Position numbers and translations under genes: made by a program
In this document: positions 17,052 through 33,718 of the stretch, piece after piece
Layout: each line of letters starts with the position of its first letter
Numbering within the stretch: position 1 is the stretch's first letter
Origin: Promicromonospora soli
Lineage (GTDB): Bacteria; Actinomycetota; Actinomycetes; Actinomycetales; Cellulomonadaceae
Assembly: GCF_014653785.1 (NCBI RefSeq)
Contig: NZ_BNAS01000001.1
Span: 62,001 to 126,000, forward strand
Direction: 5' to 3'
DNA: 64,000 nt
Notes under the pieces: model-generated
Seen by the model: the letters and a program-made list of their open reading frames with translations, nothing else
What the model was told of the DNA's origin: nothing
Databases searched by the model: none

Positions 17052-17570
17052 TCACAGGTCGTTCACCATGCGATATGCGCGGTCGTGATAGACCAGCGGC
17101 GGCGCCCCGGAGGCCACGGCGCAGGACAACGCCCGCACCGACACCAGGTGGCTGTCCCCCACCGGCGTGCGCTGCACCACCCGCCCGCGCAGCCAGGCCA
17201 CCGCACCCTCGATGACGGGCTCCCCCGTCGGCAGCGGCGCCCAGCCGCCGTCGGCGAACCGGTCGATCCCGCTGGTCGCGAACCGCGCGGAGACGTCGGC
17301 CTGCCCCGCGGCGAGAAAGCTGATCGCCACGGTGCGGGCCCGTGCCAGGGCAGGCCACGAGGAGGAGGTGGTCGCCAGCGAGAACGCCACCGACGGCGGC
17401 GCGGCCGACACCGAGATGACCGACGTCGCGGTGAACCCGACCGGCCGGTCGCCGTCGGCCAGCGCGACGACCGCCACCCCGGCGGGGTGCCGCCGGAAGA
17501 CCGCCTTGAACTCGTCCGAGCGCACCCCCGGGCCGGTCAGGACGCTCAGGTCGGTCAGCTCCGCGGTCAC
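17052..17570 (-). CDS. Flavin reductase family protein (FMN-binding split barrel)
   Basis: A 172-residue flavin reductase of the split-barrel type, which supplies reduced FMN to two-component monooxygenases. The family pattern is visible: FRRHPAGVAVVAL, PVGFTATSVISVSAAPPSVAFSL, and FLAAGQADVSARFA. The C-terminal part has DSHLVSVRAL and PLVYHDRAYRM, the usual family ending. The GTG start overlaps the upstream FMN reductase stop as GTGA. It is the last gene of the 14-gene operon and most likely serves the three luciferase-like oxygenases encoded just upstream. Confidence 0.85.
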   Translation of the reverse strand: MTAELTDLSVLTGPGVRSDEFKAVFRRHPAGVAVVALADGDRPVGFTATSVISVSAAPPSVAFSLATTSSSWPALARARTVAISFLAAGQADVSARFATSGIDRFADGGWAPLPTGEPVIEGAVAWLRGRVVQRTPVGDSHLVSVRALSCAVASGAPPLVYHDRAYRMVNDL

Positions 17571-18127
17571 GGGGCCACCCCCGCCAGCGGCGCGGGGACG
17601 GCCCGGCCGAGCGTCGCCGCCCAGCGCGCGGCCCAGGCCTCGAGCGGCTGCCCGACGTCGGCCAGCTGGTCCTCGGTCACGGCGAACGTCCGCGCGGGCA
17701 CCACGGCGCCGAGCTCGACCAGCACCGGCCGCAGGTGCACCTCCCCCGCCAGCGCGTGTGCGGGGCTCGCGGAGACCACGACGGGTACCGCGACGACGCC
17801 CGCGAGCGCGTCGGGGCCGTAGCCGTCCAGGAACGCCTTGAGGAGGCCGGTGTAGGACGCCTTGTAGACCGGCGTCGCCACCACCACCAGCCGCGCCGCC
17901 GCCACCCGGTCCCGGGCCGCGGTCACGGCGGCCGACCCGGTCAGGATCTCGGGGGCGAGCAGCGCCAGGTCGACCGGGTCGGTCCCGGGCAGGGCCAGCG
18001 AGCCCGCCAGCCGGCGTCCGACCGCCTGCGCCACGCCCAGGGTGCGTGAACCCGGCCGCGGGTTGCCGCTGACGACCACCAGGCCGCCCGGGTGGTGATC
18101 CGTCTGCTGATCCGTGTGCGCGGTCAT
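17567..18127 (-). CDS. NADPH-dependent FMN reductase (SsuE/MsuE-like)
   Basis: A 186-residue flavodoxin-fold reductase. The phosphate-binding loop VVVSGNPRPGSRT near residue 17 and the ATPVYKASYTGLLKAFLDGYG segment are typical of SsuE/MsuE proteins, which make FMNH2 for alkanesulfonate-type monooxygenases. The start ATG overlaps the preceding monooxygenase stop (ATGA), so the two are translationally coupled. A second, unrelated flavin reductase follows immediately; having both types side by side suggests high FMNH2 demand or partner specificity. Confidence 0.85.
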   Translation of the reverse strand: MTAHTDQQTDHHPGGLVVVSGNPRPGSRTLGVAQAVGRRLAGSLALPGTDPVDLALLAPEILTGSAAVTAARDRVAAARLVVVATPVYKASYTGLLKAFLDGYGPDALAGVVAVPVVVSASPAHALAGEVHLRPVLVELGAVVPARTFAVTEDQLADVGQPLEAWAARWAATLGRAVPAPLAGVAP

Positions 18128-19287
18128 ACCGTCACCTCCGTCTTTGTCGTGTCTCTCTGCTTCGTGTCTCGCTTCGTGCGGGCAGGCGGGTCGACGGCGG
18201 TGAACCCAGCGGCCCGCCGCTCGTCGCGCGGGCCCCACAGGTCCGTCCGGACCTCGGCCCGCACCTGCGGAACCACCTCCTGGGCGAACCGGCGCAGCAC
18301 GTCCTCCTGCTGCGCCGGTTCGAGCAGGTGGTTCACCGACACCGCCTGCAGCACGTGCCCGAAGGTGGAGTGGTAGTCGAGGATCTTGTTGACCACGTCC
18401 TCGGGCGAGCCCACCAGCGCCGGGCCGCGTTCGACGGCCTCCTCGAGGGTGCGGAAGCTGGTGACCTCGCCGATGGCGCCCGGCGCGTGCTTCCGCGCGT
18501 CCTGCTGGCGCACCTGGCCCTCGTAGATCGGCCGGTACTGCTCGACCGCCTCTTCGGTGGTGTCGGCCAGGAACAGGCCGCCCGACCCCGCGCCGACGAA
18601 CCCGTACGCCGGGTCGTGCCCCGCGGCCGCGTATCGCTCGCGGTACCGGTCGATGAGCACGCCGTAGTTCTCGCGGGGCTGCAGCGCGTTGGCGCTGACG
18701 ATCGGGTCCCCGTGCTCTGCCGCGAGGTCGACGGCGAACTGCGACGTCGCCGAGCCGTGCCAGATGCGGAACGGCCCCGCGAACGGGCGTGGCAGCGTGG
18801 TCGCGTGCTCCAGCTTTTGCCGGTGCCTGCCCTCCCACGTGACGTCCTCGCCGGCGAGCAGGAGCCGCAGGAGCTCGTAGTTCTCGCGCAGGTATTCGTA
18901 CTGCTTGGCGATGTCGAGGCCGAGCAACGGGTACTGCAGGTCCTCGTTGCCCTTGCCGATGACGATCTCAAGGCGGCCGCGGCTGAGCTGGTCGACGGTC
19001 GCCAGGTCCTCCGCGAGCCGGATCGGGTCGTGCAGGGACAGTACGGTGACACCCGTCGACAGCAGGATGCGGGACGTGCGGGCGGCGATCGCCCCGAGGA
19101 TGACGGTCGGGGCGGACGACAGCACCGGGCCCGCGTGCCGCTCCCCCACGGCGAAGGAGTCGAACCCGAGCTCCTCCGCGAGGACCGCCGTGTCGACGAT
19201 CCGGTTCAGCCGGTCGGCGGGCGGCACCTCCGCGCCCGTGACGGGGTGCGGCGGGTTGAAGGCGATGTCCAGGACCTGGAAACGCAT
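18124..19287 (-). CDS. LLM-class FMN-dependent monooxygenase (third of three)
   Basis: A 387-residue bacterial luciferase-like TIM-barrel enzyme. Family features: DTAVLAEELGFDSFAVGERH, TSRILLSTGVTVLSLHDPIRLAEDLATVDQLSRGR, and a C-terminal ALVGSPEDVVNKILDY. Such enzymes use FMNH2 and O2 to oxidise or cleave substrates such as sulfonates or sulfur ethers. It overlaps the upstream SsuD-like gene by one base (TGATG) and the downstream reductase by four bases. The Lys/Arg-rich tail (last 25 residues) is unusual and probably disordered. Substrate unknown. Confidence 0.82.
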   Translation of the reverse strand: MRFQVLDIAFNPPHPVTGAEVPPADRLNRIVDTAVLAEELGFDSFAVGERHAGPVLSSAPTVILGAIAARTSRILLSTGVTVLSLHDPIRLAEDLATVDQLSRGRLEIVIGKGNEDLQYPLLGLDIAKQYEYLRENYELLRLLLAGEDVTWEGRHRQKLEHATTLPRPFAGPFRIWHGSATSQFAVDLAAEHGDPIVSANALQPRENYGVLIDRYRERYAAAGHDPAYGFVGAGSGGLFLADTTEEAVEQYRPIYEGQVRQQDARKHAPGAIGEVTSFRTLEEAVERGPALVGSPEDVVNKILDYHSTFGHVLQAVSVNHLLEPAQQEDVLRRFAQEVVPQVRAEVRTDLWGPRDERRAAGFTAVDPPARTKRDTKQRDTTKTEVTV

Positions 19288-20411
19288 CAGGCGGCCGCAC
19301 TCTCGGTCTCGCTCTCCGCAGCACGGTCGCGCTGCGCTACGCCCTCCTTGACCAGGGGGATGACGTAGCGGCCGAAGTCGATGGCGTCGTCGAGCAGGTC
19401 GTAGCCGCGGGCCGAGATGACCCGGACGCCCAGGTCGTAGTACGCGAGCAGCGCCTCGGCGACCTGCTCCGGCGTGCCGACCAGCGCGTTCGAGTTCCCG
19501 GCGCCGCCGGTCGCCTTCGCCGTGGCGGTCCAGAGCGCCGTGTCGAACCGCTCGCCCTGGGCGGCGATCTCGAGCAGACGCTGGGACCCCGCGTTCTCGG
19601 GGTTGTCGATCGGGTGGCGCCGGCTCAGGACGCCGCCCTGCGCGGCCTTCCGCGCCTCGATCCGGCCCAGGATCTGGTACGCCTTCTCCCAGGCCAGCTT
19701 CTCCGTCGGCGCGATGATCGGCCGGAACGCGGCGTGGATCCGAGGCGGTGTCGCGCGGCCTGCGGCCTCCGCCTCGGCGCGCACGCGGGCGATCTGCTCC
19801 GCGGTGCGGTCCAGGGGCTCGCCCCAGACGGCGTAGATGTCGGCCTCGGCCGCCCCGACCGGGTAGGCGGCGTCCGACGAGCCGCCGAACGAGATGGTGG
19901 GCACGTGCCCCGGATGCGGCTTGGCATCGAGCACGAAGTCGTCGAGGTCGTAGAACTCGCCGTGGTGGTCGAACGGCTCGGCGCTGGTCCACGCCCGCTT
20001 CACGATCTGGATGTACTCGCGGGTGCGGGCGTACCGCTGGTCCTTGGTCAGGGTGTCGCCCTCCCGGCCCTGCTCGTGGTCGTTGCCGCCCGAGATGAAG
20101 TGCACGGACAGCCGACCGCCCGAGAGCTGGTCCAGCGTCGCGAACGTCTTGGCCGCGTACGTCGGGTACGAGACGTTGGGCCGGTGCGCGAGCAGCAGCT
20201 CGATCGACGGCACGTGCGCCGCGACGTGCGCCGCGAGCGCGGCGGGCTCCGGCCCGGACGAGCCGTAGGCGAACAGGATGCGGGTCCAGCCGTTGTCCTG
20301 GTGGGCGCGCGCTATGCGGACCAGGTAGTCGGGGTCGAAGGGCTGGGTGGTGCGCTCGGTGGTCTCCGAGGCGTCGTTGGTGGCGGCTATGCCAAGGAAC
20401 TCGACGGGCAT
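19287..20411 (-). CDS. SsuD-like flavin monooxygenase (alkanesulfonate monooxygenase family)
   Basis: A 374-residue LLM monooxygenase most like SsuD, which releases sulfite from sulfonates. Visible: DPDYLVRIARAHQDNGW, FATLDQLSGGRLSVHFISGG, RTREYIQIVKRAW and PTISFGGSSDAAYPVGA, all standard for the alkanesulfonate branch. The ATG at 20411 has AAGGAG upstream. The 50-base gap from the preceding monooxygenase gene is one of the few breaks in the operon's otherwise overlapping genes. Whether the substrate is a sulfonate or an N-acetyl S-substituted cysteine cannot be decided from sequence. Confidence 0.84.
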   Translation of the reverse strand: MPVEFLGIAATNDASETTERTTQPFDPDYLVRIARAHQDNGWTRILFAYGSSGPEPAALAAHVAAHVPSIELLLAHRPNVSYPTYAAKTFATLDQLSGGRLSVHFISGGNDHEQGREGDTLTKDQRYARTREYIQIVKRAWTSAEPFDHHGEFYDLDDFVLDAKPHPGHVPTISFGGSSDAAYPVGAAEADIYAVWGEPLDRTAEQIARVRAEAEAAGRATPPRIHAAFRPIIAPTEKLAWEKAYQILGRIEARKAAQGGVLSRRHPIDNPENAGSQRLLEIAAQGERFDTALWTATAKATGGAGNSNALVGTPEQVAEALLAYYDLGVRVISARGYDLLDDAIDFGRYVIPLVKEGVAQRDRAAESETESAAA

Positions 20412-20461: not shown

Positions 20462-21667
20462 TCAGGCGGCGCTGACCTTTCGGCGAGGGCTCTGGTCGGC
20501 GGCCCCCTCGGTGATGCCCCAGGCGTGGGCGAGCAGCTCGAAGGAGCGGCGTGTCTCGGCGGGGTCGTGGGTGGCGGTGGTCACGAGCAGCTCGTCGGCA
20601 CCTGTGACGCGAGCCAGCGTGTCGAGGCGCTCGACGACGGTGGCCGGGTCGCCGACGATCCGGGTGTCGACGCGGTCGGCCACGAGCGCACGCTCGGCGT
20701 CGGGCCGGGCCGTCCAGGCCGTTGCGGCCGACGGTGACGGGTAGGCGATGGCGCCGCGTTCGCCGCGGCGGATCGACAGCACCCAGTCGGCGAACGGCTC
20801 GGCGAGCACGCGCGCTCGTTCGAGGGTCTGGGCGACGAGCACGTCGGCCGACACGACCACGTAGGGCTCGGCGAGCACGCCCGGCCGGAACGCCGCCCGG
20901 TAGGCGGCGACCGTGTCCAGGACGGTGGCGGGGCTGACGTGGAAGTTGGCCGCGAGCGGCAGGCCGAGCGCGCCCGCGACGGTGGCGCTCTCTCCGCCGC
21001 TGGACGCGAGCAGCCACAGGTCGAATGCCGCGCCCTCGACGGGCGGGCTCGTGTAGGCGCTTCCCGTCCGGTCGCGGTACGTGCCCCGCTGCAGCGCGAG
21101 CACGGTCTCCACCTCCTCGCGGAAGCCCGCGGGCCGGCGGTGCGTGCCGATCACCTCCTGCTGGGCCAGGAGCCGCTCGCGCAGCGCCGGGTCGTTGAGT
21201 CCGTTCGGCGGGGCGGGCGGCACGTAGAGGCCGTCGACGAGCCGGGGTACGGCGGGCGCGGGCGGGCCCGCCGGCTGGGCGGCCCGGACGGGCTTGGTGT
21301 TCGGCGTGCCCGACGGCGGCGGCGTGAACGCACGCCCCAGCCCCAGGTCGACCCGGCTGGGGTGCAGCGCGGCGATGGTGCCGAACTGCTCGGCGGCGAC
21401 CAGGGGCGACGTCGTGGACAGCAGCACGGCTCCGGAGCCGACCCGGATGCGGGAGGTGCGGGCCGCGACCGCGGCCGCGAGGACGGCGGGTGACGCCGAG
21501 GCGACACCGGGCGCCAGGTGGTGCTCGGCGTACCAGACGCGCCGGTATCCGAGCGCGTCCAGGTCGACGGCGAGCGACACCGCGCGCTGGATCGCCTGGA
21601 CACCGGTGGCGCCGTCGGCGACCAGGGCCAGGTCGAGGACGGACAGCGGGACTCTTCGGGTGCTCAT
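20462..21667 (-). CDS. LLM monooxygenase, MsnO8/alkanal-type (YtmO-like)
   Basis: A 401-residue luciferase-like enzyme starting VPLSVLDLALVADGATG, with RRVWYAEHHLAPGVASASP, IRVGSGAVLLSTTSPLVAAEQFGTIAALH and LGLPLAANFHVSP. This is the MsnO8-type pattern also seen in Bacillus YtmO. A central Pro/Ala-rich stretch (about 130-160) is expanded. I chose the ATG at 21667 because GAGGAG precedes it; an ATG at 21679 overlapping the upstream stop would add four residues. It directly follows the amino-acid-type binding protein, as ytmO follows tcyN in Bacillus. Confidence 0.82.
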   Translation of the reverse strand: MSTRRVPLSVLDLALVADGATGVQAIQRAVSLAVDLDALGYRRVWYAEHHLAPGVASASPAVLAAAVAARTSRIRVGSGAVLLSTTSPLVAAEQFGTIAALHPSRVDLGLGRAFTPPPSGTPNTKPVRAAQPAGPPAPAVPRLVDGLYVPPAPPNGLNDPALRERLLAQQEVIGTHRRPAGFREEVETVLALQRGTYRDRTGSAYTSPPVEGAAFDLWLLASSGGESATVAGALGLPLAANFHVSPATVLDTVAAYRAAFRPGVLAEPYVVVSADVLVAQTLERARVLAEPFADWVLSIRRGERGAIAYPSPSAATAWTARPDAERALVADRVDTRIVGDPATVVERLDTLARVTGADELLVTTATHDPAETRRSFELLAHAWGITEGAADQSPRRKVSAA

Positions 21668-21675
21668 GATGCTCC

Positions 21676-22692
21676 TCATTCCTCGGTCTTGGGCAGGCCG
21701 GGCGGGTTGGTCTCGGCGCGGTCCACTGCCTCGGTCCCCAGGCCCCACCGCTCCAGCACCTGGTGGTAGGAACCGTCCTCGATGGCGTGGTTGAGCGCGG
21801 CGGTTACCGCCTCGGCGGCGCCGGCGCCCTTCTTGGTCGCGACGGCGATCTGCGCCGTGTCGGGCCAGCCGCCGTTCAGGGTCCCGACCACCTTGAAGTC
21901 GTCCGGCGAGACCGCCGCCTGGTAGGCGAGCACGGCGTTCGGCCCGACGTAGGCCTCGACTCGCCCCGACTGGAGGGCGAGCAGCACGTCGGAGAGCGAC
22001 TCGTAGTACTCGGGGCCCTCGATGGGCGCCAGCCCGTCCTCCTGGTTGAGGCGGTCCCACTCGAGCAGGATCTTCTCCTGGTTGGTCCCGGACCCGACGC
22101 CGACCGTCCGGCCCGCGATGTCCTCGCGGTCGTCGATCGTCAGGTCCGAGCCGGCGGCCGTGAGCCAGCCCAGCTCGTCGACGCGGTAGCTGGAGAAGTC
22201 GATGGTCTCCTTGCGCTCCTCCGTCACGGTGATGTTCGAGATGACGGCGTCGACGTCGCCCGACTGGAGAGCGAGCGGCCAGTCGGCCCAGGCCTTGACC
22301 TCGAGCCGCACGTCCTTGCCGAGGGCGTCGGCCACGAGCTGCGCGATGTCGGTCTCGTGGCCGATCGGGGTCTTGTCGTCGTCGGCGAGGAAGACCAGGG
22401 GCGGGGAGCCGCTCGCGCTCACCGCGACGGTGATCTCGTCCTTGTCCGCCCACTCGTCCGGCAGCAGGGCCACCGCCTCGGCGGACTCGGTGGTGCGGAC
22501 CCGGTCCTGGTCGGGGCTGGTGCTGACCTGCAGCCCGGCGGACTCGGGGGCGTTCTCGGCGAGGCCCGCCGCGCCGTCGGCCGCCTCGGGCCGCTCGGTG
22601 CTGGCGGCCGCGCAGGCGGTCGTCAGCGCGAGCAGCGGGACGGCGGTCAGGGCGAGCAGGCGGGTTCGGACGGCTCGTCGGGAGACGGTCAC
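21676..22692 (-). CDS. Amino-acid-type ABC transporter substrate-binding lipoprotein
   Basis: A 338-residue periplasmic-binding-protein family 3 member. A basic N-terminus and hydrophobic helix end at TTAC, an atypical lipobox, so it is probably membrane-anchored. The mature part contains VFLADDDKTPIGHETDIAQLVADALG, DVDAVISNITVTEERKETIDFS and GRTVGVGSGTNQE, all typical of cystine/polar amino-acid binders. The GTG at 22692 has GAAGGG seven bases upstream; a GTG at 22737 overlapping the ATPase stop is the alternative. With the adjacent permease and ATPase it forms a complete importer, likely for an S-containing amino acid. Confidence 0.85.
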   Translation of the reverse strand: MTVSRRAVRTRLLALTAVPLLALTTACAAASTERPEAADGAAGLAENAPESAGLQVSTSPDQDRVRTTESAEAVALLPDEWADKDEITVAVSASGSPPLVFLADDDKTPIGHETDIAQLVADALGKDVRLEVKAWADWPLALQSGDVDAVISNITVTEERKETIDFSSYRVDELGWLTAAGSDLTIDDREDIAGRTVGVGSGTNQEKILLEWDRLNQEDGLAPIEGPEYYESLSDVLLALQSGRVEAYVGPNAVLAYQAAVSPDDFKVVGTLNGGWPDTAQIAVATKKGAGAAEAVTAALNHAIEDGSYHQVLERWGLGTEAVDRAETNPPGLPKTEE

Positions 22693-22733
22693 GGTGGTTC
22701 CCTTCGGGTTCTGGACAGGATTGGGGTTCGGGG

Positions 22734-23498
22734 TCACAGGACCTTCTCCAGGAAGGCCTTGGTCCGGGGGCTGGCGGGGCGGTCGAGCACGTCGGCGGAC
22801 GGCCCCTGCTCGATCACGACGCCGCCGTCCATGAAGACGACGGTGTCCGCGACCTCGCGGGCGAAGGCCATCTCGTGGGTGACGACGACGAGCGTGGTGC
22901 CGGTGCCCGCGAGCTCCTTGATCACCTCGAGCACCTCGCCGACGAGCTCGGGGTCGAGGGCGGAGGTCGGCTCGTCGAAGAGGACGACGGCTGGCCGCAG
23001 CGCGAGCGCCCGAGCGATGGCCACCCGCTGCTGCTGACCGCCCGAGAGCTGCCGGGGCCGGGCGTCGGCCCGGTCAGCCAGCCCGACGCGCGCGAGGAGC
23101 TCTCGCCCCTCCGCCTCGGCCTGCGCGCGCGGCCGGCCCTGCGCGAAGATCGGCGCCTCCACGACGTTCTCCAGCACCGTGAGGTGCGGGAACAGGTTGA
23201 AGTTCTGGAACACGAACCCGATCCGGGTGCGGCGGCGCAGGATCTCGCGCTCGGTGAGCTCCCGCAGCGTGCTGCCGCGCCGGGCGTACCCGACGAGCTC
23301 GCCGTCCAGGGACACGAAGCCGCGGTCCACCTTCTCCAGGTGGTTGATCGCGCGCAGCAGGGTCGACTTGCCCGACCCGGACGGGCCGATGATCGCCGCG
23401 ACCTCGCCGGGCCGGACCGTGAGGTCCACCCCGCGCAGTGCCTCGAGCATGCCGAACGACTTGTGCACGCCGCGGATCTCCAGCAGCCCCCCGGTCAT
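22734..23498 (-). CDS. Amino-acid-type ABC transporter ATP-binding protein
   Basis: A 254-residue polar-amino-acid ATPase (GlnQ/TcyN type). Walker A is [11 protein letters not shown] near residue 38, the Q-loop region [18 protein letters not shown], signature [16 protein letters not shown], Walker [15 protein letters not shown] and H-loop [10 protein letters not shown] family-typical insertion between Walker A and the Q-loop is present. It starts with an ATGA overlap on the permease gene and is followed by the binding protein. Confidence 0.9.
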
Positions 23499-24571
23499 GC
23501 CGCACCCCCGCGCGGGGCGACCCGGCGGCCGACCCGGACGCGCGCCGCGAAGGCGGGCGGGACGCCGTCGGGCACCGGTGCGCCCGTGAGGCGCGAGCGG
23601 CCGACCTGGAGCTCCCAGCGCACCCGCTGCAGCGGCGTGGGCGGCAGGGTGCGCAGCGCGCCCTTCGCGTAGTGCCGCTCCACGTAGTACTGGACCACCG
23701 TGATCAGCGTGGTGAGCGCCAGGTACCAGATGGCGGCGACGATCAGGAGCGGCACCACCCGGCCGTTGCGGCCGTAGATGACGCTCACGATGTAGAACAG
23801 CTCGCCGTACGCCAGCACGTACACGATCGAGGTGCCCTTGAGCAGCCCGATCACCTCGTTCACGGCGGTGGGCACGATCGACCGCATCGCCTGCGGCAGG
23901 ATGATGCGCCGCACCTGGCGGTGTCGCGGCAGGCCCAGCGAGGCCGCGGCCTCGTGCTGGCCCTGGTCGACGCCGAGGATCCCGGCCCGGACGATCTCCG
24001 CGCTGTAGGCCGCCTGCGACAGGCCCAGGCCGAGGATCGCCGCCCAGAACTTGTCGATCAGATCGAGCGTGTCGAAGAACAGCAGCTCCGGCCCGAACGG
24101 GATCCCGAGGCTGAGGACCGGGTACAGGTAGGCGAGGTTGTACCAGAGCAGGAGCTGCAGCAGCAGCGGCACCGACCGGAACACCCAGGTGTAGGCCCAC
24201 GAGACCGCCTGCAGCAGGGGCGAGCGCGACAGCCGCATGAGCGCCAGCACCGTGCCGAGCGCGAAGCCCACCACCGACGCCGTCACCGTGAGCCGGATCG
24301 TCGCCCACGCACCCTCCAGGATCGACGGCCAGGTGAGGTACCGCGCCACGACGTCCCACTCCCAGCGGTCGTTGGTGACCAGCGAGGAGACCACCATGGC
24401 CAGCAGCACGGCGACGACGGCGGTGGCGAGCCAGCGGCCCGGGTGCCGGGCCGCAACCACCCGCAGGTCCTCGTCGGCCGGCCCGGCGGACGCCGCGCTA
24501 CCCCCGCCCGGCGGCATGCCGGGCGGCGGGTAGAGGAGGCGCGACTCGCCTTCGGCCAGGTCCGCGCTCAT
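23495..24571 (-). CDS. Amino-acid-type ABC transporter permease
   Basis: A 358-residue HisM/GlnP-type permease. An N-terminal Pro/Gly-rich cytoplasmic stretch (about 45 residues) precedes the helix near [19 protein letters not shown], then [36 protein letters not shown] and the EAA loop [22 protein letters not shown]. Only one permease gene is present, so it probably forms a homodimer. The ATG at 24571 overlaps the acetyltransferase stop (ATGA), matching the coupling style of this operon; an ATG at 24586 would add five residues. Confidence 0.88.
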
Positions 24572-25185
24572 CTCGCCGCCAGCCATTTTTCGAAAGGGAG
24601 CGGGCTGAACGGATCAGCACCCGACGGTTCGGCGGGCTCGCCCGCGGCGGCCACGGACAGCGGCGTGTAGCCGGTCGCCCGGTACAGCGCCGCCGCCTCC
24701 GGCTGCCGCGGGCCTGTGGTCAGGTAGAGCCGCGAGTAGCCCAGGTCGCGGGCCCGGGTCTCGAGCTCCGCCAGCACCCGCCGGGCCAGGCCGCGACGCC
24801 GGTGGGCACCGTGCGTCCAGATGCGCTTGAGCTCCGCCGTCGGGACTGCGGGAGCGCCGTCCCCGTCCCGGGTGCCGGGCCGCGCCAGGCGGGCCGCGTC
24901 CCCGAGCTCCGGCTCGAGCCGACGGCGGAACGCGCCGCCCGCCACCGGGTCGCCGCCCTCCAGGAGCAGGACCAGGGAGCCCACCGGCGGGGCGAACTCC
25001 TCGGCACCGTAGTGGGCCATCTCGGCCCGGTGCTCCTCGTCGGTCAGCACGTCGTGGTACCGCGACCGGTACTCGACCGACAGACCGGCCAGCAGGGGCT
25101 CGACCAGCGGGTCCGAGAGTCGCACCTCCCGGACCTCCAGCGCCGGGGACGTCTCCGTGGACGCCCCCGTGGAGACGGCCGTCAT
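24568..25185 (-). CDS. GNAT-family N-acetyltransferase
   Basis: A 205-residue GNAT enzyme. The acetyl-CoA pyrophosphate loop is HGAHRRRGLARRVLAEL, followed by GYSRLYLTTGPRQPEAAALYRATGYTPL. GNAT proteins acetylate amines. In Bacillus subtilis the ytmI (snaA) GNAT N-acetylates S-substituted cysteines before monooxygenase attack. Finding a GNAT next to an amino-acid importer and LLM enzymes fits that scheme, but this is inference. It overlaps both neighbours by four bases. No deacetylase, needed for the Bacillus route, was found in the window. Confidence 0.85.
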   Translation of the reverse strand: MTAVSTGASTETSPALEVREVRLSDPLVEPLLAGLSVEYRSRYHDVLTDEEHRAEMAHYGAEEFAPPVGSLVLLLEGGDPVAGGAFRRRLEPELGDAARLARPGTRDGDGAPAVPTAELKRIWTHGAHRRRGLARRVLAELETRARDLGYSRLYLTTGPRQPEAAALYRATGYTPLSVAAAGEPAEPSGADPFSPLPFEKWLAAR

Positions 25186-26099
25186 CGGGGCGCCCTCTCG
25201 CCCGCCGTCACGGCGAACGGCAGGTGGTTGCCCGCGAGCGGGGCCGGGCACGTGCCGAAGTCCGTGAACGCGTACGGCAGGTTCACCGCCCGGTTCAGGT
25301 CGAGGCGTAGCGTGCCCGACGTCGCCGGCGCCCAGTCCGGCGCCGGGATCCGGAGGATCCGCCACGGCGCGACGCCGTCGGCCTCGTCGCTGAACAGGAG
25401 GGTCGGCTCCGTGCGGCTGCCGGTCAGGGCCAGGGTGACCACCGCTCCCTCGTGGGCGACGTCTACCTCACCGAGCACCGCGACGTGGTGCACCAGGCGC
25501 GGCTGCGCGGCGCCGACCGTGACCGGCTCCGGGTCCTCGTACCAGGTCACGGGGACGTCGAGCACCCAGGCGGGGTCGTAGTCGAACGTGGGGACGTGGT
25601 CGAAACCGGTGCGGGTGGCGGCCTGCGGGTCGAGCGGCCGGACGGCGTAGCGGCCGGTGCGCAGCACCACCTCGACCGCCACCTCGTGCTCGTCGTCCGC
25701 TCCCTCGCCCCTGACCCGGCCCTCCGGGAGGAACGTGCCGACGATGCGGGAACGCCCCTCGTCGACGCCGACCAGCGTCGGCCCCACGGGCTCGACCTGG
25801 TCGCCGGCCAGCACGGCTCGGTCACCCGGCACTGGCCGGGTGAACAGGGTGCGGTCGGCCACCCACCACTCGCCGGGAATGCCGGGCAAGCGGCGGGGCA
25901 CCGCCGTCGGCCAGTGCAGGGCGACCTGGCTCAGCGGGCCGTGGGGCTCGCGCAGGTCGCGCTCGCGGGCGGCGCGCCACGCCGCATGGTCGCGGGCGGC
26001 GGCCGCGTCCGGCGCAGCGGCGTTCGTCGCCGGGCCGGTCGCGGTGCTTGTTGCCGTGCCTGTTGCCCTGGTCGTCGCTGTCTGCAGTGTCTCGGTCAT
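25182..26099 (-). CDS. DUF1684 domain-containing protein
   Basis: A 305-residue protein of the DUF1684 family, function unknown. The N-terminal 30 residues are Thr/Ala-rich and low-complexity. The family core is visible in HAAWRAARERDLREPHGPLS, VTWYEDPEPVTVGAA and the C-terminal hallmark LDLNRAVNLPYAFTDFGTCP followed by NHLPFAVTAGE. No catalytic residues can be assigned. It overlaps the fused ATPase gene upstream and the GNAT gene downstream, so it is certainly co-expressed with the importers and monooxygenases. A role in processing the imported sulfur compound is possible but unproven. Confidence 0.8.
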   Translation of the reverse strand: MTETLQTATTRATGTATSTATGPATNAAAPDAAAARDHAAWRAARERDLREPHGPLSQVALHWPTAVPRRLPGIPGEWWVADRTLFTRPVPGDRAVLAGDQVEPVGPTLVGVDEGRSRIVGTFLPEGRVRGEGADDEHEVAVEVVLRTGRYAVRPLDPQAATRTGFDHVPTFDYDPAWVLDVPVTWYEDPEPVTVGAAQPRLVHHVAVLGEVDVAHEGAVVTLALTGSRTEPTLLFSDEADGVAPWRILRIPAPDWAPATSGTLRLDLNRAVNLPYAFTDFGTCPAPLAGNHLPFAVTAGERAPR

Positions 26100-27835
26100 G
26101 TCAGGTCCTTCCGGTCGGGGTGCCGACGGGTGCGGGCACCGGGGATCGCCGCGAGCAGCTCGGCGGTGTAGGGGTGGGCCGGGTGGTCGAAGACGCTCCC
26201 GACGGGCCCCGTCTCCACGAGCTGCCCGTTCCTCATCACGCCGACGTGGTCGGCGACCTGCCGCACCACCGCCAGATCGTGCGAGATGAACAGGTAGGTG
26301 AGGCCACGCTCCGCGCGCAGCCGGGCCAGCAGGGCCAGCACGCGGGCCTGCACCGAGACGTCGAGCGCCGACGTCGGCTCGTCCAGCACGAGCAGCTCGG
26401 GGTCGAGCGCGAGCGCCCGTGCGATCGCCACGCGCTGGCGCTGTCCGCCCGACAGCTCGGCGGGCCGGCGTCGGGCCAGGTCCGGTGAGAGGTGCACCTG
26501 CTCCAGCAGCTGCGCCACCCGGTCCGCGCGCTCCGCGCGGGTCCCGACGCGGTGTGCGCGCAGCGGCTCCTCGACGACGGCGGCCACGGTGAACCGCGGG
26601 TCGAGGGACGAGTACGGGTCCTGGTGCACCAGCTGGGTCCGCCGCCGGGTGGCCAGGTCGCCGCCCACGGGGGCGCCGTCCAGCTCCACGACGCCGGCGG
26701 AGGGTCGGTCCAGGCCGAGCACGAGCCGGGCCGTCGTCGACTTGCCCGACCCCGACTCCCCCACCAGCGCGAACGTCGACCCGCGGGGCACGGTGAACGA
26801 GACGTCGTCGACGGCGCGCAGGCGTTCCCGGCGCCCCAGGCGGAACTCCTTGACCAGCGCGTGCGCGGCCAGGAGGACGGGCTGCGGCGGCACGTTGAGG
26901 GCGGTGCTCGGGGCCGCCGGCTCGCTCGTGGTCGCGGCCGGGCCGGCTGGCACGGCGGCGCTTGGCACAGTATTTGTGCCAGGCACCGCCGCCACGAGCT
27001 CACGCGTGTACGGGTGCTCGGGGGCGCCCAGCACCCGCCCGGCCGGCCCCTCCTCGACCACTACGCCGTCCTTGAGCACGACCACCCGGTCGGCGCGGTC
27101 GGCGGCCACCGCGAGATCGTGCGTGATGAGCAGCACCGCGGTCCCCGCGCGGCCCGCGAGGTCGGCGAGCAGGTCCAGCACGCGTCGCTGCACCGTCACG
27201 TCCAGGGCCGACGTCGGCTCGTCCGCGATCACCAGCTCCGGCTCGCACGCCATCGCGATCCCGACGAGTACCCGCTGGCGCATGCCGCCCGACAGCTGGT
27301 GCGGGTACTGCCGCGCCCGCTCCCCGGGGTGGTCGAGCCCCACCTCGCGCAGGATCTCGACGGCCCGCTCGCGCGCGGCCCGGCGCGGCGTCCCGTGCAC
27401 CACCAACGCCTCCGCCACCTGGTCGCCGACCCGCATCACCGGGTCGAGCGCGGTACCCGGATCCTGCGGCACGAGCCCCACGCGCACGCCGCGCACGCGC
27501 CGCCAGGCGTCCGGCAGGAGGCCGGTGAGCGGCTCCACGCCGAGGGCAACCTCCCCCGAGGTGACCCTGCCGCCGTCGGGCAACAGGCCGATGAGGGCGT
27601 GCGCCGTCGTGGACTTGCCGCTCCCGGACTCGCCCACGAGCGCGACCACCTCACCCGGCCGCACGTCCAGGTCCACACCGTGCACCACCTCGCGGTCGCC
27701 GTAGGCGACGCGCAGGCCGCGCACCCGCAGCAGGCCGCCCGGCGCCGCGGGCTCGCCCGCAGCATCCTCCGTCGCCCGGTCAGGCGCGGCCGTGCCGGCG
27801 CGCGTCCTCGCCGTGACTGTTCTCGTGAGCGTCAT
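26096..27835 (-). CDS. Dipeptide/nickel-type ABC transporter, two fused ATPase domains
   Basis: A 579-residue fusion of DppD- and DppF-like ATPases. First domain: Walker A GESGSGKSTTAHAL near residue 72, signature [30 protein letters not shown]. Second domain: GESGSGKSTTARLVLG near 355, [35 protein letters not shown] Pro/Ala/Thr-rich linker (about 275-315) joins them. Fusion of the two subunits is common in actinobacteria. It follows DppC with an ATGA overlap and powers the DppABC-like importer at the start of this operon. Confidence 0.9.
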   Translation of the reverse strand: MTLTRTVTARTRAGTAAPDRATEDAAGEPAAPGGLLRVRGLRVAYGDREVVHGVDLDVRPGEVVALVGESGSGKSTTAHALIGLLPDGGRVTSGEVALGVEPLTGLLPDAWRRVRGVRVGLVPQDPGTALDPVMRVGDQVAEALVVHGTPRRAARERAVEILREVGLDHPGERARQYPHQLSGGMRQRVLVGIAMACEPELVIADEPTSALDVTVQRRVLDLLADLAGRAGTAVLLITHDLAVAADRADRVVVLKDGVVVEEGPAGRVLGAPEHPYTRELVAAVPGTNTVPSAAVPAGPAATTSEPAAPSTALNVPPQPVLLAAHALVKEFRLGRRERLRAVDDVSFTVPRGSTFALVGESGSGKSTTARLVLGLDRPSAGVVELDGAPVGGDLATRRRTQLVHQDPYSSLDPRFTVAAVVEEPLRAHRVGTRAERADRVAQLLEQVHLSPDLARRRPAELSGGQRQRVAIARALALDPELLVLDEPTSALDVSVQARVLALLARLRAERGLTYLFISHDLAVVRQVADHVGVMRNGQLVETGPVGSVFDHPAHPYTAELLAAIPGARTRRHPDRKDLT

Positions 27836-28668
27836 CGGTCAGTCCTTCCCTCGCGGGCGAGCGTTCGCCCGAGCACGCCGATCGCGAGCACGAAGAACGC
27901 GATGACCAGGCCCGGCAGCGTCGAGTACCACCAGGCGACCGCCAGGTAGTCGCGGCCCTCCGCCACCAGCGAGCCCCACTCGGGCGTCGGCGGCGTGGCG
28001 CCGTACCCCAGGAAGCTCAGGGCCGAGACGGCGAGGATCACCGCGCCGAGCTCGACGGCGGCGAGCGCCAGCACCGGGCCGGCCGCGTTCGGCAGCACGT
28101 GCCGCAGGACGACGGCGGCCCGGCCGGAGCCGGCCAGCCTCGCCGCCTCCACGTAGGTGGCGTGCCGCACCCGCAGCACCTGGCTGCGCATGACGCGGGC
28201 GAACGTGGCCACGGAGGCGATGCCCACGGCGACCGCCACCTTCACGGTCCCGAAGCCGAGCGCGGTGACCACCGCGAGCGAGAGCAGCAGCCCCGGGATG
28301 GCGAGCAGGACGTCGGTGGCGCGCATGAGGGCGTCGTCGACCGGGCCGCCCAGGAAGCCCGCGACCAGCCCGATGCCGGACCCCGCCACCAGGGCGACGA
28401 CGATCGCGAGCAGCGCGGCCCGCACCGACAGGCTCGTGCCGTGCACGGTGCGCGCGAACAGGTCGCGGCCCAGGTGGTCGGTGCCGAACCAGTGGGCGCC
28501 ATCCGGCGGCCGGAGCCGGTCGGCGGGGACGCCGGTCACCGGGTCGTAGCCCGTGAAGAGCCCGGGGATGAGCGCCCAGGCCAGGACGACGGCCACTACC
28601 GCGAGAGCCACCAGGTCGGCGGGCCGGGCGAGGGCGCGGGTCCGGACGCGGGTAAGGAGGTGGGTCAT
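27832..28668 (-). CDS. Dipeptide-type ABC transporter permease (DppC-like)
   Basis: A 278-residue permease. It starts with a cytoplasmic basic segment, then the helix LVALAVVAVVLAWALIPGLF, the family motif HWFGTDHLGRDLFARTVHGT, and the EAA loop TYVEAARLAGSGRAAVVLRHVLPN. It ends with PGLVIAFFVLAIGVLG. About six transmembrane segments. The ATG at 28668 overlaps the DppB stop (ATGA); the longer upstream frame runs inside DppB and is not coding. Confidence 0.9.
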   Translation of the reverse strand: MTHLLTRVRTRALARPADLVALAVVAVVLAWALIPGLFTGYDPVTGVPADRLRPPDGAHWFGTDHLGRDLFARTVHGTSLSVRAALLAIVVALVAGSGIGLVAGFLGGPVDDALMRATDVLLAIPGLLLSLAVVTALGFGTVKVAVAVGIASVATFARVMRSQVLRVRHATYVEAARLAGSGRAAVVLRHVLPNAAGPVLALAAVELGAVILAVSALSFLGYGATPPTPEWGSLVAEGRDYLAVAWWYSTLPGLVIAFFVLAIGVLGRTLAREGRTDR

Positions 28669-29636
28669 CGCGCGCCTCCCCCGGTGCCGGACCCGCCGTG
28701 CCCGCCACGCAGGACCCGGGGGTCGAGGAGGGGGTGGGCGAGGTCGACCAGCAGGCTGGTCAGGACGAACACGGCGGCGGCGACGACCACCAGCCCCTGG
28801 ACCACCGGGATGTCCTGGGTGGTCACCGCGTTCTCGACGAGCCGGCCGAAGCCCTGGCGGGAGAACACCGTCTCGACCACTACCGTGCCGCCGAGCAGGT
28901 TGCCGACCAGGACGCCGAGCACGGCGACAGTCGGCAGGGACCCGTTGCGCAGCACGTGCGCGCCGAGCACCCGCGCCCGCGAGGAGCCCTTGGCGAACGC
29001 GGTCTCCACGTAGGGCGCCCGCCAAGCCTCGCGCAGACCTTGGGACAGCACCTGCGCGATCACGGCGGCGAGCCCGATCGCGAGCGTGACCGCGGGCAGC
29101 ACCAGGGAGGCGAACCCCTCGTTGCCCACCGCGGGGAAGAGGAACCAGGTGAACGAGAACAGGTGGAGCAGCACGAGCCCCACCCAGAACCCGGGTACCG
29201 CGACGCCGAGCGGCGGCAGCGCCAGCAGCAGGTCGCGCAGCCAGGCGGCCCTGGTCCAGTAGGCGAGCGTCGCGATGCCGACGCCGGCGGCCAGGGCGAG
29301 CAGGAGCGCGAGCCCCGCGAGCTTCGCCGTCTCGGGGAACGCGTCGGCGATGAGGCCCGTCACGGGGGCGCCGCTGCTGATGGAGGTGCCGAGGTCGCCA
29401 GTCAGTGTGCGGCCCAGCAGCGTGACGTACTGCCGGACGGGACCCTGGTCGAACCCGTAGCGCTCGCGCAGCTCGGCTGCCCGCGCGGGGTCCACGCGCT
29501 CTCCCCCGGCGCCCTGGTCGAGCATGATCGCCACGGGGTCGCTGGGCAGCAGGTACAGGATGAGGAACGACACGGTGAACGCCGCCCAGAGGACCGCGGC
29601 AGCGCCGGCGAGGCGGCGCAGGACGTAGGTGACCAT
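28665..29636 (-). CDS. Dipeptide-type ABC transporter permease (DppB-like)
   Basis: A 323-residue permease beginning MVTYVLRRLAGAAAVLWAAF, with the family periplasmic region ERYGFDQGPVRQYVTLL, GDLGTSISSG, and the EAA loop YVETAFAKGSSRARVLGAHVLRN. Six hydrophobic segments are seen. The ATG at 29636 overlaps the binding-protein stop by one base (TGATG), with AGGA just upstream. It pairs with the DppC-like gene that follows. Confidence 0.9.
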   Translation of the reverse strand: MVTYVLRRLAGAAAVLWAAFTVSFLILYLLPSDPVAIMLDQGAGGERVDPARAAELRERYGFDQGPVRQYVTLLGRTLTGDLGTSISSGAPVTGLIADAFPETAKLAGLALLLALAAGVGIATLAYWTRAAWLRDLLLALPPLGVAVPGFWVGLVLLHLFSFTWFLFPAVGNEGFASLVLPAVTLAIGLAAVIAQVLSQGLREAWRAPYVETAFAKGSSRARVLGAHVLRNGSLPTVAVLGVLVGNLLGGTVVVETVFSRQGFGRLVENAVTTQDIPVVQGLVVVAAAVFVLTSLLVDLAHPLLDPRVLRGGHGGSGTGGGAR

Positions 29637-31309
29637 CAGTCCTGCTCGATCCATGCGTCGTGGAACAGCAGGCGGGAGGAAGCGTCGAAGGCGAGGCCGT
29701 GCACGTCCCCGCGGACGCCGATCGACTGCGCCAGCTCGAACAGCGGGACCGCGAGGCCCTGGTCGAGGATCTCCCGCTGGGCGTCCGCGACGAGCGCGTC
29801 CCGGGCCGCCGGGTCCGCCTCGCCGAGCTGCTCGTCGAGCAGCGGGTCGACGGCGTCGTCCGGCTCGCGCAGGCTGAGGTTGCGCTGGGCGGTCGAGAAC
29901 TGGGTGCGCAGGATGTCGGCGTCGGCCCGGGTGACGTTGTAGTAGTAGAGGTCGTAGTCGCCGGACTCCTGGGCGGTGGTCTGCTCGGCCGCGGTGAGCT
30001 GCCGCAGCAACAGGTCGACGCCGATCGCGCGCAGCTGCTGGGCAGCCAGTTCCAGCACCGCCCCGCTACCGGTGAAGACGGGGGTGTAGGTCACCTCGAT
30101 CTCGAGCGGCTCCCCGTCCTTGACGCGGATGCCGTCCGGGCCGGTCGTCCACCCGGCGTCGTCGAGGATCTTCCCGGCCTCGTCGGGGTCGAAGGCGAGC
30201 TGGTCCGACTGGTCGGCGTACCCGGGCGTAGTCGAGGCGAGCACGCTGGTGGCCGGCCTGAACGCGTCGGACAGCACCGTGTCGACCAGCTCCTGGCGGT
30301 CGATCCCCACCAGGAGCGCGCGCCGCACCTCCGGGTCGTCCAGGGGCGGGCGGGTCACGTTGGGCTGCAGCACGAACGGAACCCCGGGGTTGGCGCGGGT
30401 CAGCACCTCGCCGCCCGAGCCCTCGACCTGCGGCACGTCCTGCGGCAGCACGTCGCCGACGGCGTCGAACTGGTCGGACGCGAGCCCGCCTGCCCGCACC
30501 CCGGACTCCGGGACCACCGAGAACTCGATGCGGTCGAGGTAGGCGTCGCCCTCGTGCTCGGACGACTCGGGCGCCCACTCATAGCCCTCGCGCCGGGTGA
30601 TCACGGCGCCCTGGTCCTGCGTGTAGCTCTCGAGGACGAACGGCCCCGAGCCGACGACGTCGCCCTGCAGGCGCTCGGCCGGGTCCGCCTGGGCGGTCTG
30701 CTCCGACAGGATCGCCAGCGAGACCGTCGAGGTGGCCTGCAGGAACTGCGCGTTCGGCGCGTCGAAGACGACGGTCGCCGTGCGCTCGTCGGGCACCTCG
30801 GTCTTCTCGTAGCCCGCGAGGTAGCTCGCCGCGAGCGGCGCGGTCGCCCCGAGCTCGCCCGCGACGGCGTCGAAGCTGGCCCGCACGTCGTCGGCGGTGA
30901 GCGGGCTGCCGTCCGAGAACGTGACGCCGTCGCGCAGGTGGAACGTGAAGCGGGTCAGGTCTTCGCTGACGTCCCAGCTCTCCGCGAGCCACGGCTCGAT
31001 CTCGCCCGTGGCGGGGTCCTGGTCGGTGAGCGAGTCCGCGAGCTGCCGGGCGACGTAGATGCTGACGTTCGTGCCGACCTGCTGCGGATCCACACCCTGC
31101 GGCGGGGCACCGAGCGCGAACCGGAGCGTGCCGCCCGGCGTCGGGTCGGCGGGCGCGGCGCCCGAGGCGGAGTCGGGTCCGGCGCAGCCGGTCAGGGCGA
31201 GGGCGGCGACAAGCGCAGCGGCGACGGCGGCGGGCGCGGCGCGGTGCGACGCGGTGCGGTGCGGCGTCGTGCGAGCCGGCGTCGTGTGGTGTGGGCGGGT
31301 CCGGACCAT
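29636..31309 (-). CDS. Peptide/nickel-type ABC transporter substrate-binding lipoprotein
   Basis: A 557-residue family-5 extracellular solute-binding protein. The His/Thr/Arg-rich N-terminus leads into a signal helix ending ALALTGC, a good lipobox. The mature part contains PTPGGTLRFALGAPPQGVDPQ, WDVSEDLTRFTFHLRDGVTFSDG and DPEVRRALLVGIDRQE, all typical of DppA-like proteins. The ATG at 31309 has AGAGGA at 31318-31323; a longer frame to 31372 runs through leader hairpins and is rejected. It is the first structural gene after the Cys-rich leader peptide, and its translation start is the likely target of attenuation. Confidence 0.88.
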   Translation of the reverse strand: MVRTRPHHTTPARTTPHRTASHRAAPAAVAAALVAALALTGCAGPDSASGAAPADPTPGGTLRFALGAPPQGVDPQQVGTNVSIYVARQLADSLTDQDPATGEIEPWLAESWDVSEDLTRFTFHLRDGVTFSDGSPLTADDVRASFDAVAGELGATAPLAASYLAGYEKTEVPDERTATVVFDAPNAQFLQATSTVSLAILSEQTAQADPAERLQGDVVGSGPFVLESYTQDQGAVITRREGYEWAPESSEHEGDAYLDRIEFSVVPESGVRAGGLASDQFDAVGDVLPQDVPQVEGSGGEVLTRANPGVPFVLQPNVTRPPLDDPEVRRALLVGIDRQELVDTVLSDAFRPATSVLASTTPGYADQSDQLAFDPDEAGKILDDAGWTTGPDGIRVKDGEPLEIEVTYTPVFTGSGAVLELAAQQLRAIGVDLLLRQLTAAEQTTAQESGDYDLYYYNVTRADADILRTQFSTAQRNLSLREPDDAVDPLLDEQLGEADPAARDALVADAQREILDQGLAVPLFELAQSIGVRGDVHGLAFDASSRLLFHDAWIEQD

Positions 31310-31342
31310 GGGGGTCGTCCTCTCGGGGCACGGCGAAGCAGA

Positions 31343-31383
31343 CCCGCGCCAGAGCGCGCGCGGGCCCGTCACCGGACGTGACG
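31343..31383 (-). promoter_or_regulatory. Two adjacent hairpins before the first structural gene
   Basis: On the minus strand CGTCAC/GTGACG (31367-31383, 6-bp stem) is followed by CCCGCGC/GCGCGGG (31343-31364, 7-bp stem), ending about 20 bases before the AGAGGA ribosome binding site of the binding-protein gene. They are candidates for the structural part of an attenuator governed by the upstream leader ORF. No alternative pairing has been computed. Confidence 0.4.
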
Positions 31384-31518
31384 TGGGGTGGGGGTTTCTG
31401 TGCGTGACGCGAGTGACGCGAGGTGACAGAGCGCAGGACGCCGGCCCGGGCGGGCACAGCGAGGAGCGGCCGCTATGGCCGGGCGGTGGGGGCGCTGCTA
31501 GGTCTTACCTGGGTGCGG

Positions 31519-31605
31519 TCAGCGACAGGCGGGACAACACTCGTGGACACAACACATGGAGCGGGCGTGCGCGATCTGCACCGTGCCGTTCGTCGCTCGT
31601 GCCAT
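31519..31605 (-). CDS. Cysteine-rich 28-residue leader peptide (attenuator uORF)
   Basis: An ATG at 31605 preceded by GGAGGG (31612-31619 region) opens a 28-codon ORF. The protein has a basic N-terminal half (MARATNGTVQIAHARSM) and then CCVHECCPACR: five Cys in the last eleven residues, at positions 18, 19, 23, 24 and 27. All five Cys codons are TGT, although the surrounding genome is strongly GC-biased and would favour TGC. This matches Cys-rich upstream ORFs described in mycobacteria, where ribosome stalling at low cysteine raises expression of downstream sulfur genes. It begins about 60 bases downstream of a strong promoter, and the sulfur-type operon follows 209 bases after the stop. The ORF is too short for most gene callers. 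Confidence 0.85.
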   Translation of the reverse strand: MARATNGTVQIAHARSMCCVHECCPACR

Positions 31606-31623
31606 GTCGGTCTCCCTCCGATT

Positions 31624-31653
31624 CGAATTCCCTATCAAATTGATCGGGATTCG
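31624..31653. promoter_or_regulatory. Imperfect inverted repeat just downstream of the operon -10
   Basis: The AT-rich dyad CGAATTCCCTATCAA / TTGATCGGGATTCG (arms match in 12-13 positions with one single-base slip) lies between the -10 element and the leader ORF. Its placement over the early transcribed region fits a repressor operator. No regulator gene lies in the operon to pair with it. Confidence 0.45.
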
Positions 31654-31662
31654 ATATGCGTG

Positions 31663-31691
31663 AAGTTACGTCGGTCCGCAGGGCATGTCAA
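31663..31691 (-). promoter_or_regulatory. Sigma-70-type promoter of the sulfur operon
   Basis: On the minus strand TTGACA (31691-31686) and TAACTT (31668-31663) are separated by exactly 17 bases. This is the best consensus promoter seen in the window. It lies 62 bases past the yvcK stop and points into the Cys-rich leader ORF. Confidence 0.8.
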
Positions 31692-31753
31692 CGACAGCCG
31701 GGAAAGGTCTCGCATCGCGGACGAAACGCCGGTCCCCAGCGGGGAGCGCCAGG

Positions 31754-32764
31754 TCAGACGTCGCCGTAGACGCCCTCGAACACGTCCCGGTAGGCCGCGG
31801 CCAGGCGCAGCCCGTCGTGCTTGGCCGTGTCGTCGCCGCGCCGGACCTGGCGCATGATTACGCGCGCGCCCATGGACGCGGCGGCGGCCTCCAGGGCCGT
31901 GACGTCCTCGACTGCTGACGGGTCGGCGAGCACGGCGTCGATCCGCAGGCCTGGCGCGTGCTTGTGCAGGGCCTCCAGGTGGTCGACGGCGGTGAGGCCC
32001 TCCGTCTCGCCGTTCTCCGCGGACAGGTTCAGCGTCACGCACCGCCGCGCCTTCGTGACGTGCAGGGCGTTTGCGAGCTCGGGCACCAGCAGGTGCACCA
32101 GCACAGACGAGTACCAGGACCCGGGCCCCAGGACCACCCAGTCGGCGTCGAGCACCGCCTGGACCGCCTCCGGGGCGGCCGGCGGATCCGCCGGGACCAG
32201 GCGCAGCTGCTCGATCCGGCCCGGGGTGACGGCGACCCGGCTCTGCCCGACCACGGTCTCCAGGGAGGGCTCGGGCTCCCCCGGCGCCGCGGGGTGCCGC
32301 ACGTCGGCCTCGACCACGAGCGGCACCGAGGCCATCGGCAGCACCCGGCCTCGCGCGCCCAGGAGGCGGCCGACCCAGTCCAGGCCCTCCACCTCGTCGC
32401 CCAGCAGCTCCCACAGCGCCACGATCAGCAGGTTCCCCATGGCGTGGTTGTCCAGCTCGCCCGACGACGAGAAGCGGTGCTGCAGCATGGCGCTCCAGGT
32501 GCGGCCCCACTCGGAGTCGTCGCACAGGGCCGCGAGCGCCATCCGCAGGTCGCCGGGAGGCAGCACGTTGAGCTCGTCGCGCAGCCGGCCGCTGGAGCCG
32601 CCGTCGTCGGCCACCGTCACGACCGCCGTGAGGCGGTCCGACATGAGACGCAGCGCGGACAGGCTGGCGGACAGGCCGTGCCCGCCGCCCAGGGCGACGA
32701 CCGACGGGTTCTTGCTCCACTCCGGTGCGGGGATGTCGGGCACCCCTGGTGCGTGCGGGATCAT
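31754..32764 (-). CDS. yvcK: Gluconeogenesis factor YvcK family protein
   Basis: A 336-residue YvcK/CofD-like protein, which binds UDP-sugars and links carbon metabolism to cell-wall synthesis and cell shape. Motifs: VVALGGGHGLSASLSALR near residue 20, VTVADDGGSSGRLR, PPGDLRMALAAL, and VLGPGSWYSSVL. The ATG at 32764 overlaps the rapZ stop (ATGA). Usually whiA follows directly; here the next gene on this strand is the sulfur-operon binding protein. Confidence 0.94.
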   Translation of the reverse strand: MIPHAPGVPDIPAPEWSKNPSVVALGGGHGLSASLSALRLMSDRLTAVVTVADDGGSSGRLRDELNVLPPGDLRMALAALCDDSEWGRTWSAMLQHRFSSSGELDNHAMGNLLIVALWELLGDEVEGLDWVGRLLGARGRVLPMASVPLVVEADVRHPAAPGEPEPSLETVVGQSRVAVTPGRIEQLRLVPADPPAAPEAVQAVLDADWVVLGPGSWYSSVLVHLLVPELANALHVTKARRCVTLNLSAENGETEGLTAVDHLEALHKHAPGLRIDAVLADPSAVEDVTALEAAAASMGARVIMRQVRRGDDTAKHDGLRLAAAYRDVFEGVYGDV

Positions 32765-33711: not shown

Positions 33712-33718
33712 GCCAGCG

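Follow-up and report, generated by a model that had tools for sequence, protein, structure and literature searches.

Cysteine-responsive attenuation is an already known kind of control, as described in the available parts of two reports (PMC1262725, PMC4633059). In its accessible text, the study of Seliverstov et al. 2005 (PMC1262725) presents candidate Cys leader peptides of Actinobacteria before cys operons and suggests the participation of Rho. Mycobacterial Cys-rich small ORFs have ribosome occupancy according to the available portion of PMC4633059, and the excerpt of PMC9094748 describes a loss of G/C skew through the Cys codons of Cys-rich short ORFs. Nothing on Cys leaders is contained in the available part of PMC9386245, and a literature search for Promicromonospora, leader peptide and cysteine found nothing.

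The locus described here lies in a 64,000-nt stretch of Promicromonospora soli DNA (the window; its genome is denoted G000). The window leader and those of PMC1262725, as presented in its available text, are alike in having Cys codons near the stop, sulfur genes behind and no obvious terminator, and in the proposal of Rho. They differ in the genes that follow, which are cys operons in Mycobacterium and P. acnes, cbs in B. longum and a transporter/monooxygenase operon in the window. The mycobacterial polycysteine ORFs likewise head sulfur operons, at several loci per genome (PMC4633059, available part).

Unmasking of the ribosome binding site (RBS), as in mycobacteria, finds no consistent folding support at the window leader in five genomes. 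The mycobacterial polycysteine short ORFs are reportedly leaderless, as Canestrari et al. 2020 are said to have found, whereas the window leader has the Shine-Dalgarno sequence GGAGGG and a predicted 5' UTR of about 50 nt. Leaders resembling the NF042934 profile precede homologues of the window operon in Rhodococcus, Pseudonocardia and Nonomuraea; the window leader itself matches none, nor does its peptide match any NCBIfam or Pfam family (NF042934, NF042933 and NF042936 are unmatched at E <= 10).

Leader ORF and its control signals

The minus strand of the window carries a promoter, an RBS and a Cys-rich ORF between 31691 and 31519 (Table 1). The first-pass annotation had named TTGACA-17-TAACTT, GGAGGG and a 28-codon ORF with five of five Cys codons TGT, and all of these were read there. 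The encoded peptide is MARATNGTVQIAHARSMCCVHECCPACR. Transcription is predicted to start near 31656, about 50 nt before the ATG, with the inverted repeat and GGAGGG in between. Such a short ORF, with an RBS and immediately in front of sulfur genes that run in its direction, is the arrangement expected of a Cys-responsive leader.

The promoter had also been called strong. Its TTGACA-17-TANNTT form is kept in 10/10 genus promoters read by anchoring on TTGACA (nine after yvcK and that of G128 on another contig; three empty sites are without promoter), but the strength is unsupported because TAACTT matches TATAAT at only 3/6 positions, and a promoter scan of the region lists no site.

The leader frame looks coding, with gene-like codon bias except at Cys: GC3 is 21/23 in the non-Cys codons, against Cys codons that are all TGT (5/5 versus 0/28 in window genes, Fisher p = 4e-6). 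GC3 exceeds GC2 with the start codon left out (p = 0.017). A TTG-started reading of 39 aa in the same frame is unlikely, because G064 has a one-base gap between TTG and ATG.

The small hairpin behind the leader stop is paired in G097 and, with altered arms, in G064; by eye, it has one mismatch in G000 and G117 and is absent in G105, and it falls outside the RNAalifold consensus of the five aligned genomes. The overall RNAalifold covariation term for the aligned UTR of these five genomes is +1.8, which is not supportive.

Table 1. Positions of the leader, its putative control signals and the downstream genes in the window.
Feature	Position	Strand	Basis
Promoter: TTGACA 31691-31686, 17-nt spacer, TAACTT 31668-31663	31663..31691	-	sequence reading
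Imperfect inverted repeat (hairpin or operator), directly 3' of predicted start site	31624..31653	-	alignment, RNA consensus fold, promoter comparison
Leader Shine-Dalgarno GGAGGG	31614..31619	-	invariant in 5 aligned genus genomes
28-codon Cys-rich leader ORF, 5 TGT (ATG 31605, TGA end 31519)	31519..31605	-	homologues in 6/13 genus genomes
Small hairpin 3' of leader stop, CCAGGU-AAG-ACCUAG	31498..31512	-	by eye
Fast-evolving C-rich, G-poor linker, possible Rho-loading region	31384..31518	-	C/G 2.0-2.5 in 5/5 genus genomes
Conserved hairpins 5' of SBP ribosome binding site, two pairs altered on both sides	31338..31382	-	alignment/fold
Substrate-binding lipoprotein (SBP), TIGR04028-like, first structural gene; RBS ~31324-31318	29636..31309	-	profile match
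Dpp/Opp/Nik-type ABC permease	28665..29654	-	profile match
Second ABC permease, start uncertain	27832..28700	-	profile match
Fused double ABC ATPase	26096..27835	-	profile match
DUF1684 protein	25182..26099	-	profile match
GNAT acetyltransferase	24568..25185	-	profile match
Amino-acid (cystine-like) ABC permease	23495..24586	-	130.8 bits to cystine model, cut-off 300 not reached
Amino-acid ABC ATPase, best match TcyN (L-cystine)	22734..23498	-	316.6 bits, cut-off 406 not reached
Family-3 solute-binding protein	21676..22737	-	profile match
MsnO8-family luciferase-like oxidoreductase	20462..21667	-	over cut-off
Luciferase-like monooxygenase nearest alkanesulfonate monooxygenase	19287..20411	-	~184 bits, under cut-offs 510 and 518
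Luciferase-like monooxygenase nearest CE1758 family	18124..19287	-	below cut-off
NADPH-dependent FMN reductase	17567..18127	-	profile match
Flavin reductase, last gene before whiA	17052..17570	-	profile match

Gene content of the downstream operon

The first structural gene starts 209 nt past the leader stop, at 31309. The fourteen co-directional genes that had been reported behind the leader are present down to 17052, and from their order and spacing we infer that they form a single transcript. They are likely to serve the uptake and oxidation of sulfur compounds. The substrates are named provisionally, because several gene names rest on scores below curated cut-offs; the SBP, for one, matches TIGR04028 with E 6.2e-109 and 364.8 bits against a cut-off of 468.5. 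Oxidation of organosulfur compounds, proposed earlier together with their import, is suggested by the luciferase-like monooxygenases, among which the MsnO8-family member alone exceeds a curated cut-off.

The operon proteins are Cys-poor. Thirteen of the 14 genes (4477 codons) have five Cys codons, versus 23 in the nine other window genes counted (3542 codons), which looks like sulfur sparing.

Conservation and loss of the leader in Promicromonospora

Leader homologues were found in six of the 13 genus genomes; they occur in 6/7 genomes with an orthologous SBP and in 0/6 without it (Fisher p = 0.005 for genomes that are related). Orthologous SBPs are matches that start at profile position 26 with E 6e-106 or better, the best nine candidates being scored per genome where more existed. 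The leader and the SBP of G128 lie on separate contigs, and the nearest SBP match of G111 is of a second type, whose upstream region is unrelated. A family-wide search with the leader gave matches in 40/150 genomes at E <= 1, only six of them below 1e-6 and all six in this genus; the others were taken as chance.

In the alignment of five genomes (G000, G064, G097, G105 and G117), the leader ORF has no indel and a mean identity of 0.89, against 0.39 for the linker behind it. All five, and G128 as well, have TGT at Cys codons 18, 24 and 25, which makes 6/6 genus leaders; codons 19 and 27 are Cys in only 2/5 aligned genomes, and the number of Cys per leader is 3 to 5. Thus the Cys codons are clustered near the stop and kept in relatives, as in a Cys-responsive leader. 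The first-pass annotation had held that loss of these codons in close relatives would count against it. Three TGT stand in every genus leader, but G048 lacks the ORF and codons 19 and 27 vary. The annotation's description of the leader as TGT-only applies to 5/6 genus leaders, G105 having one TGC, and is not general, since a second leader of the same genome, described below, is mostly TGC.

The aligned leaders have 8, 6 and 5 variable sites at codon positions 1, 2 and 3, respectively. The variable sites are therefore spread evenly over codon positions, and it is not the peptide itself that is conserved but the start and stop, the frame between them and three TGT codons. The conserved frame and several conserved Cys residues would also suit a functional small Cys-rich protein, for example a metal- or thiol-binding one, but we consider this highly improbable given a Cys count that changes, first and second codon positions that vary as often as the third, and the lack of a family match.

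The sulfur operon is located between yvcK and whiA (window 15991-33711), and related genomes differ at this site. In G006, G087 and G123, whiA directly follows yvcK. The promoter is kept in G031, G077 and G111 with no SBP within 1.5 kb of yvcK; G031 also retains the leader start (MARAR..., by eye) without the Cys tail. In G128, other sequence and then whiA lie behind yvcK. G048 has kept the promoter and the operon and lost the leader, which tells against an essential role of the leader.

The inverted repeat past the start site is kept in G031 and G111 with changed but matching arms, and both are without a Cys leader. This is what would be seen if a protein bound to the repeat controlled the operon at the promoter, with the leader secondary. 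We judge such control improbable: the repeat has a single site in its own genome at <=1 mismatch (the reversed control pattern gives two matches per strand), which leaves no sign of a regulon; a hairpin at the 5' end of the RNA would account for the repeat just as well; and such control would not explain why some homologous operons elsewhere are preceded by Cys-ending leaders.

Leaders upstream of homologous operons in other Actinobacteria

We compared the upstream regions of 80 named loci among the matches listed and of 44 family-level SBP genes. In a motif search, at least 12 of these 124 regions, all among the named loci listed, proved to contain a leader that has Cys close to its end and an H-[VI]-D motif; they come from Rhodococcus, Rhodococcoides, Pseudonocardia, Streptomyces and Nonomuraea. 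Four of the 12 peptides were scanned against NCBIfam, and all four match NF042934 with 24.1 to 27.3 bits, one of them over the cut-off of 27. Leaders of other kinds include MNRSLCRRSCR in G051 and MAHWQCPDAPCVGCRRMLLVPRACR in G069, and the homologous operon of Brevibacterium has a third leader type. Homologous operons in other Actinobacteria are thus in some cases preceded by unrelated Cys-ending candidate leaders, including the NF042934 type. The expectation that the short ORF would recur upstream of homologous operons is borne out in this form at some loci, but most of the 124 regions show no leader under our filters, an ORF being seen in 15/44 family-level regions and 12/80 listed named loci.

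Cys-ending ORFs preceded by a Shine-Dalgarno sequence were counted after omission of one of the 44 regions (containing N) and two of the 80 (too short). The 43 family-level regions have 11 such ORFs in sense and one in antisense orientation, versus a mean of 0.20 and a maximum of 2 in 60 shuffles; the Promicromonospora leader accounts for five of the 11. The 78 listed named-locus regions have nine in sense versus five in antisense orientation (shuffles: mean 0.85, maximum 3). A search for NF042934-type leaders within the genus was discarded: 12/13 genomes match at E <= 1, none over the cut-off, and so do 6/14 controls.

A second cysteine leader upstream of cysK-cysE

The genome of the window has a second Cys leader, MSTVRSALPMSPRPAATHLMCATGCCPRGCL, at G000:C4:533763-533855 (+), 191 nt before cysK-cysE. 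It is unrelated in sequence to the first. The own-genome scan that it comes from covered the upstream regions of 10/10 PALP and 21/25 luciferase-family matches, the four omitted being genes of the window operon; three more ORFs from the scan look like chance. The cysK leader is matched in 12/13 genus genomes at E <= 0.0084 and in G048 at 0.15, and is readable in 13/13. In all 13, TGT is used for the last Cys and TGC for the others; only two Cys are left in G031 and G048.

In spacing and in its C-rich linker, the cysK leader resembles the window leader. The C/G ratio of the linkers is 1.46 to 1.81 in 13/13 genomes; values of at least 1.46 occur in 1.4% of 170-nt stretches of the window. RNAalifold of the region (13 rows) shows no clear attenuator, with a covariation term of +0.78.

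A perfect palindrome, TGAGACA-GATCT-TGTCTCA, lies 99 nt before the cysK leader (G000:C4:533645-533663). It is the sole exact site of this pattern in its genome, with two more at one mismatch, and GTCTCA repeats also occur before the second-type SBP genes of G117, G105 and G097.

Possible mechanism of regulation

The ORF at 31605-31519 is probably a translated, cysteine-responsive leader, through which expression of the 14 genes would depend on Cys-tRNA supply. This reading is likely because of conservation in the genus, linkage to the operon, the unrelated Cys leaders elsewhere and the leader before cysK-cysE. A sensor of Cys-tRNA had been proposed at the outset; comparison has strengthened the proposal, with three Cys kept, operon linkage and leaders of other types, while the leaderless G048 weakens it.

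Across genomes, 150-260 nt separate the leader stop from the first structural gene, and they are mostly C-rich, G-poor and poorly conserved. RNA of this composition between leader and gene is a feature expected of a Rho-dependent attenuator. A C/G ratio of 2.0 is reached by 0.02% of 135-nt window stretches, a control that is mostly coding sequence. Measured at a fixed offset, the ratio is 1.60 in G000 and is also raised, at 1.72, in the leaderless G048, so that C-rich UTRs are not confined to operons with a leader. By the same measure, leader-bearing regions exceed the others (13 vs 28, p = 2e-4, relatedness ignored), also with Promicromonospora removed (8 vs 22, p = 0.024); the comparison omits one N-containing region and two that were doubtful.

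We propose that when cysteine is plentiful the ribosome would clear the leader and expose the C-rich linker, so that Rho would end transcription ahead of the SBP gene. Under cysteine shortage, the ribosome would pause at the UGU codons near the end of the leader, with its footprint over the start of the linker; Rho could then not load, and the operon would be transcribed. No intrinsic terminator (a G+C-rich hairpin followed by a T run) was found in 31200-31800. The only Rfam match in 20000-36000 at E <= 1, an H/ACA snoRNA at 33336-33473 whose 26.1 bits fall short of the gathering score of 37, was dismissed as chance.

The downstream step could instead be translational, with an RNA structure that hides the RBS of the SBP gene and is opened by a ribosome stalling at the Cys codons. 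Translation attenuation is the stated mechanism in M. smegmatis, according to the available part of PMC13236596. Conserved hairpins, with two pairs altered on both sides, lie directly before the SBP RBS, and GGCACGAGCGA at the start of the leader could base-pair with UCGCCGUGCC immediately ahead of this RBS (by eye; in G117 via a G-U pair). However, the same hairpins are present in the leaderless G048, and the entire UTR of G000 folds no better than shuffled sequences do (z = -0.20). With a modelled stall, the predicted accessibility of the SBP RBS rises in G064 (0.29 to 0.51-0.59), is unchanged in G000 and G097, rises in G117 from 0.53 to 0.66 at codons 24/25 only, and falls in G105 from 0.48 to 0.35. 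The GUUGUCC-Shine-Dalgarno pairing has 7 bp in G000, G064 and G105 and 5 bp in G117 and G097 (by eye); a LEU-element-like pairing of the Cys-codon run with the Shine-Dalgarno sequence was rejected as not kept in 2/5 genomes (5 bp vs 7 bp). We regard this translational step as rather unlikely, though not negligible. Rho is the better-fitting step because the linker is C-rich and G-poor, and we put the odds for Rho as the downstream step, against translational masking, just above even.

TGT codons in cysteine leaders

The preference for TGT in the leaders is the most unexpected result. The 22 window genes counted in frame (8019 codons, GC3 0.948) have no TGT and 28 TGC. Taking one leader type per lineage, by our own grouping (G000, G051, G019, G104, G083 and G069), we counted 18 TGT and 3 TGC, versus 24 and 83 in chance ORFs that pass the same filter in shuffles (p = 6e-8). 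Against the window genes the six types give p = 1e-10, those genes coming from one of the six genomes. All these tests treat codons as independent, which is not fully true. The 12 H-V-D leaders among the matches listed have 13 TGT and 14 TGC, compared with 0 and 12 for the SBP genes at these loci. The cysK leader, with mostly TGC, is a counter-example to the preference.

UGU is wobble-read by the usual Cys-tRNA. We tentatively suggest, as a possibility that falls somewhat short of even probability, that TGT itself has been selected in unrelated sulfur-uptake leaders of high-GC Actinobacteria, where UGU is the rarer Cys codon, and that UGU would pause the ribosome earlier as charged Cys-tRNA falls. 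If so, codon identity, beside amino-acid identity, would be a tuning knob of attenuation, and uptake operons with UGU would respond at milder starvation than cysK with its mostly UGC codons.

Two sequence-unrelated Cys leaders at two sulfur loci of one genome would extend Cys-leader control to Promicromonospora, and the Cys leaders in front of homologous transporter operons appear to differ from lineage to lineage. Both the codon bias and the natural series of losses deserve to be followed. The genus offers leader with operon, operon without leader, promoter alone and empty site, which makes the role of the leader testable, and the TGT bias is a simple testable rule for codon choice in attenuators.
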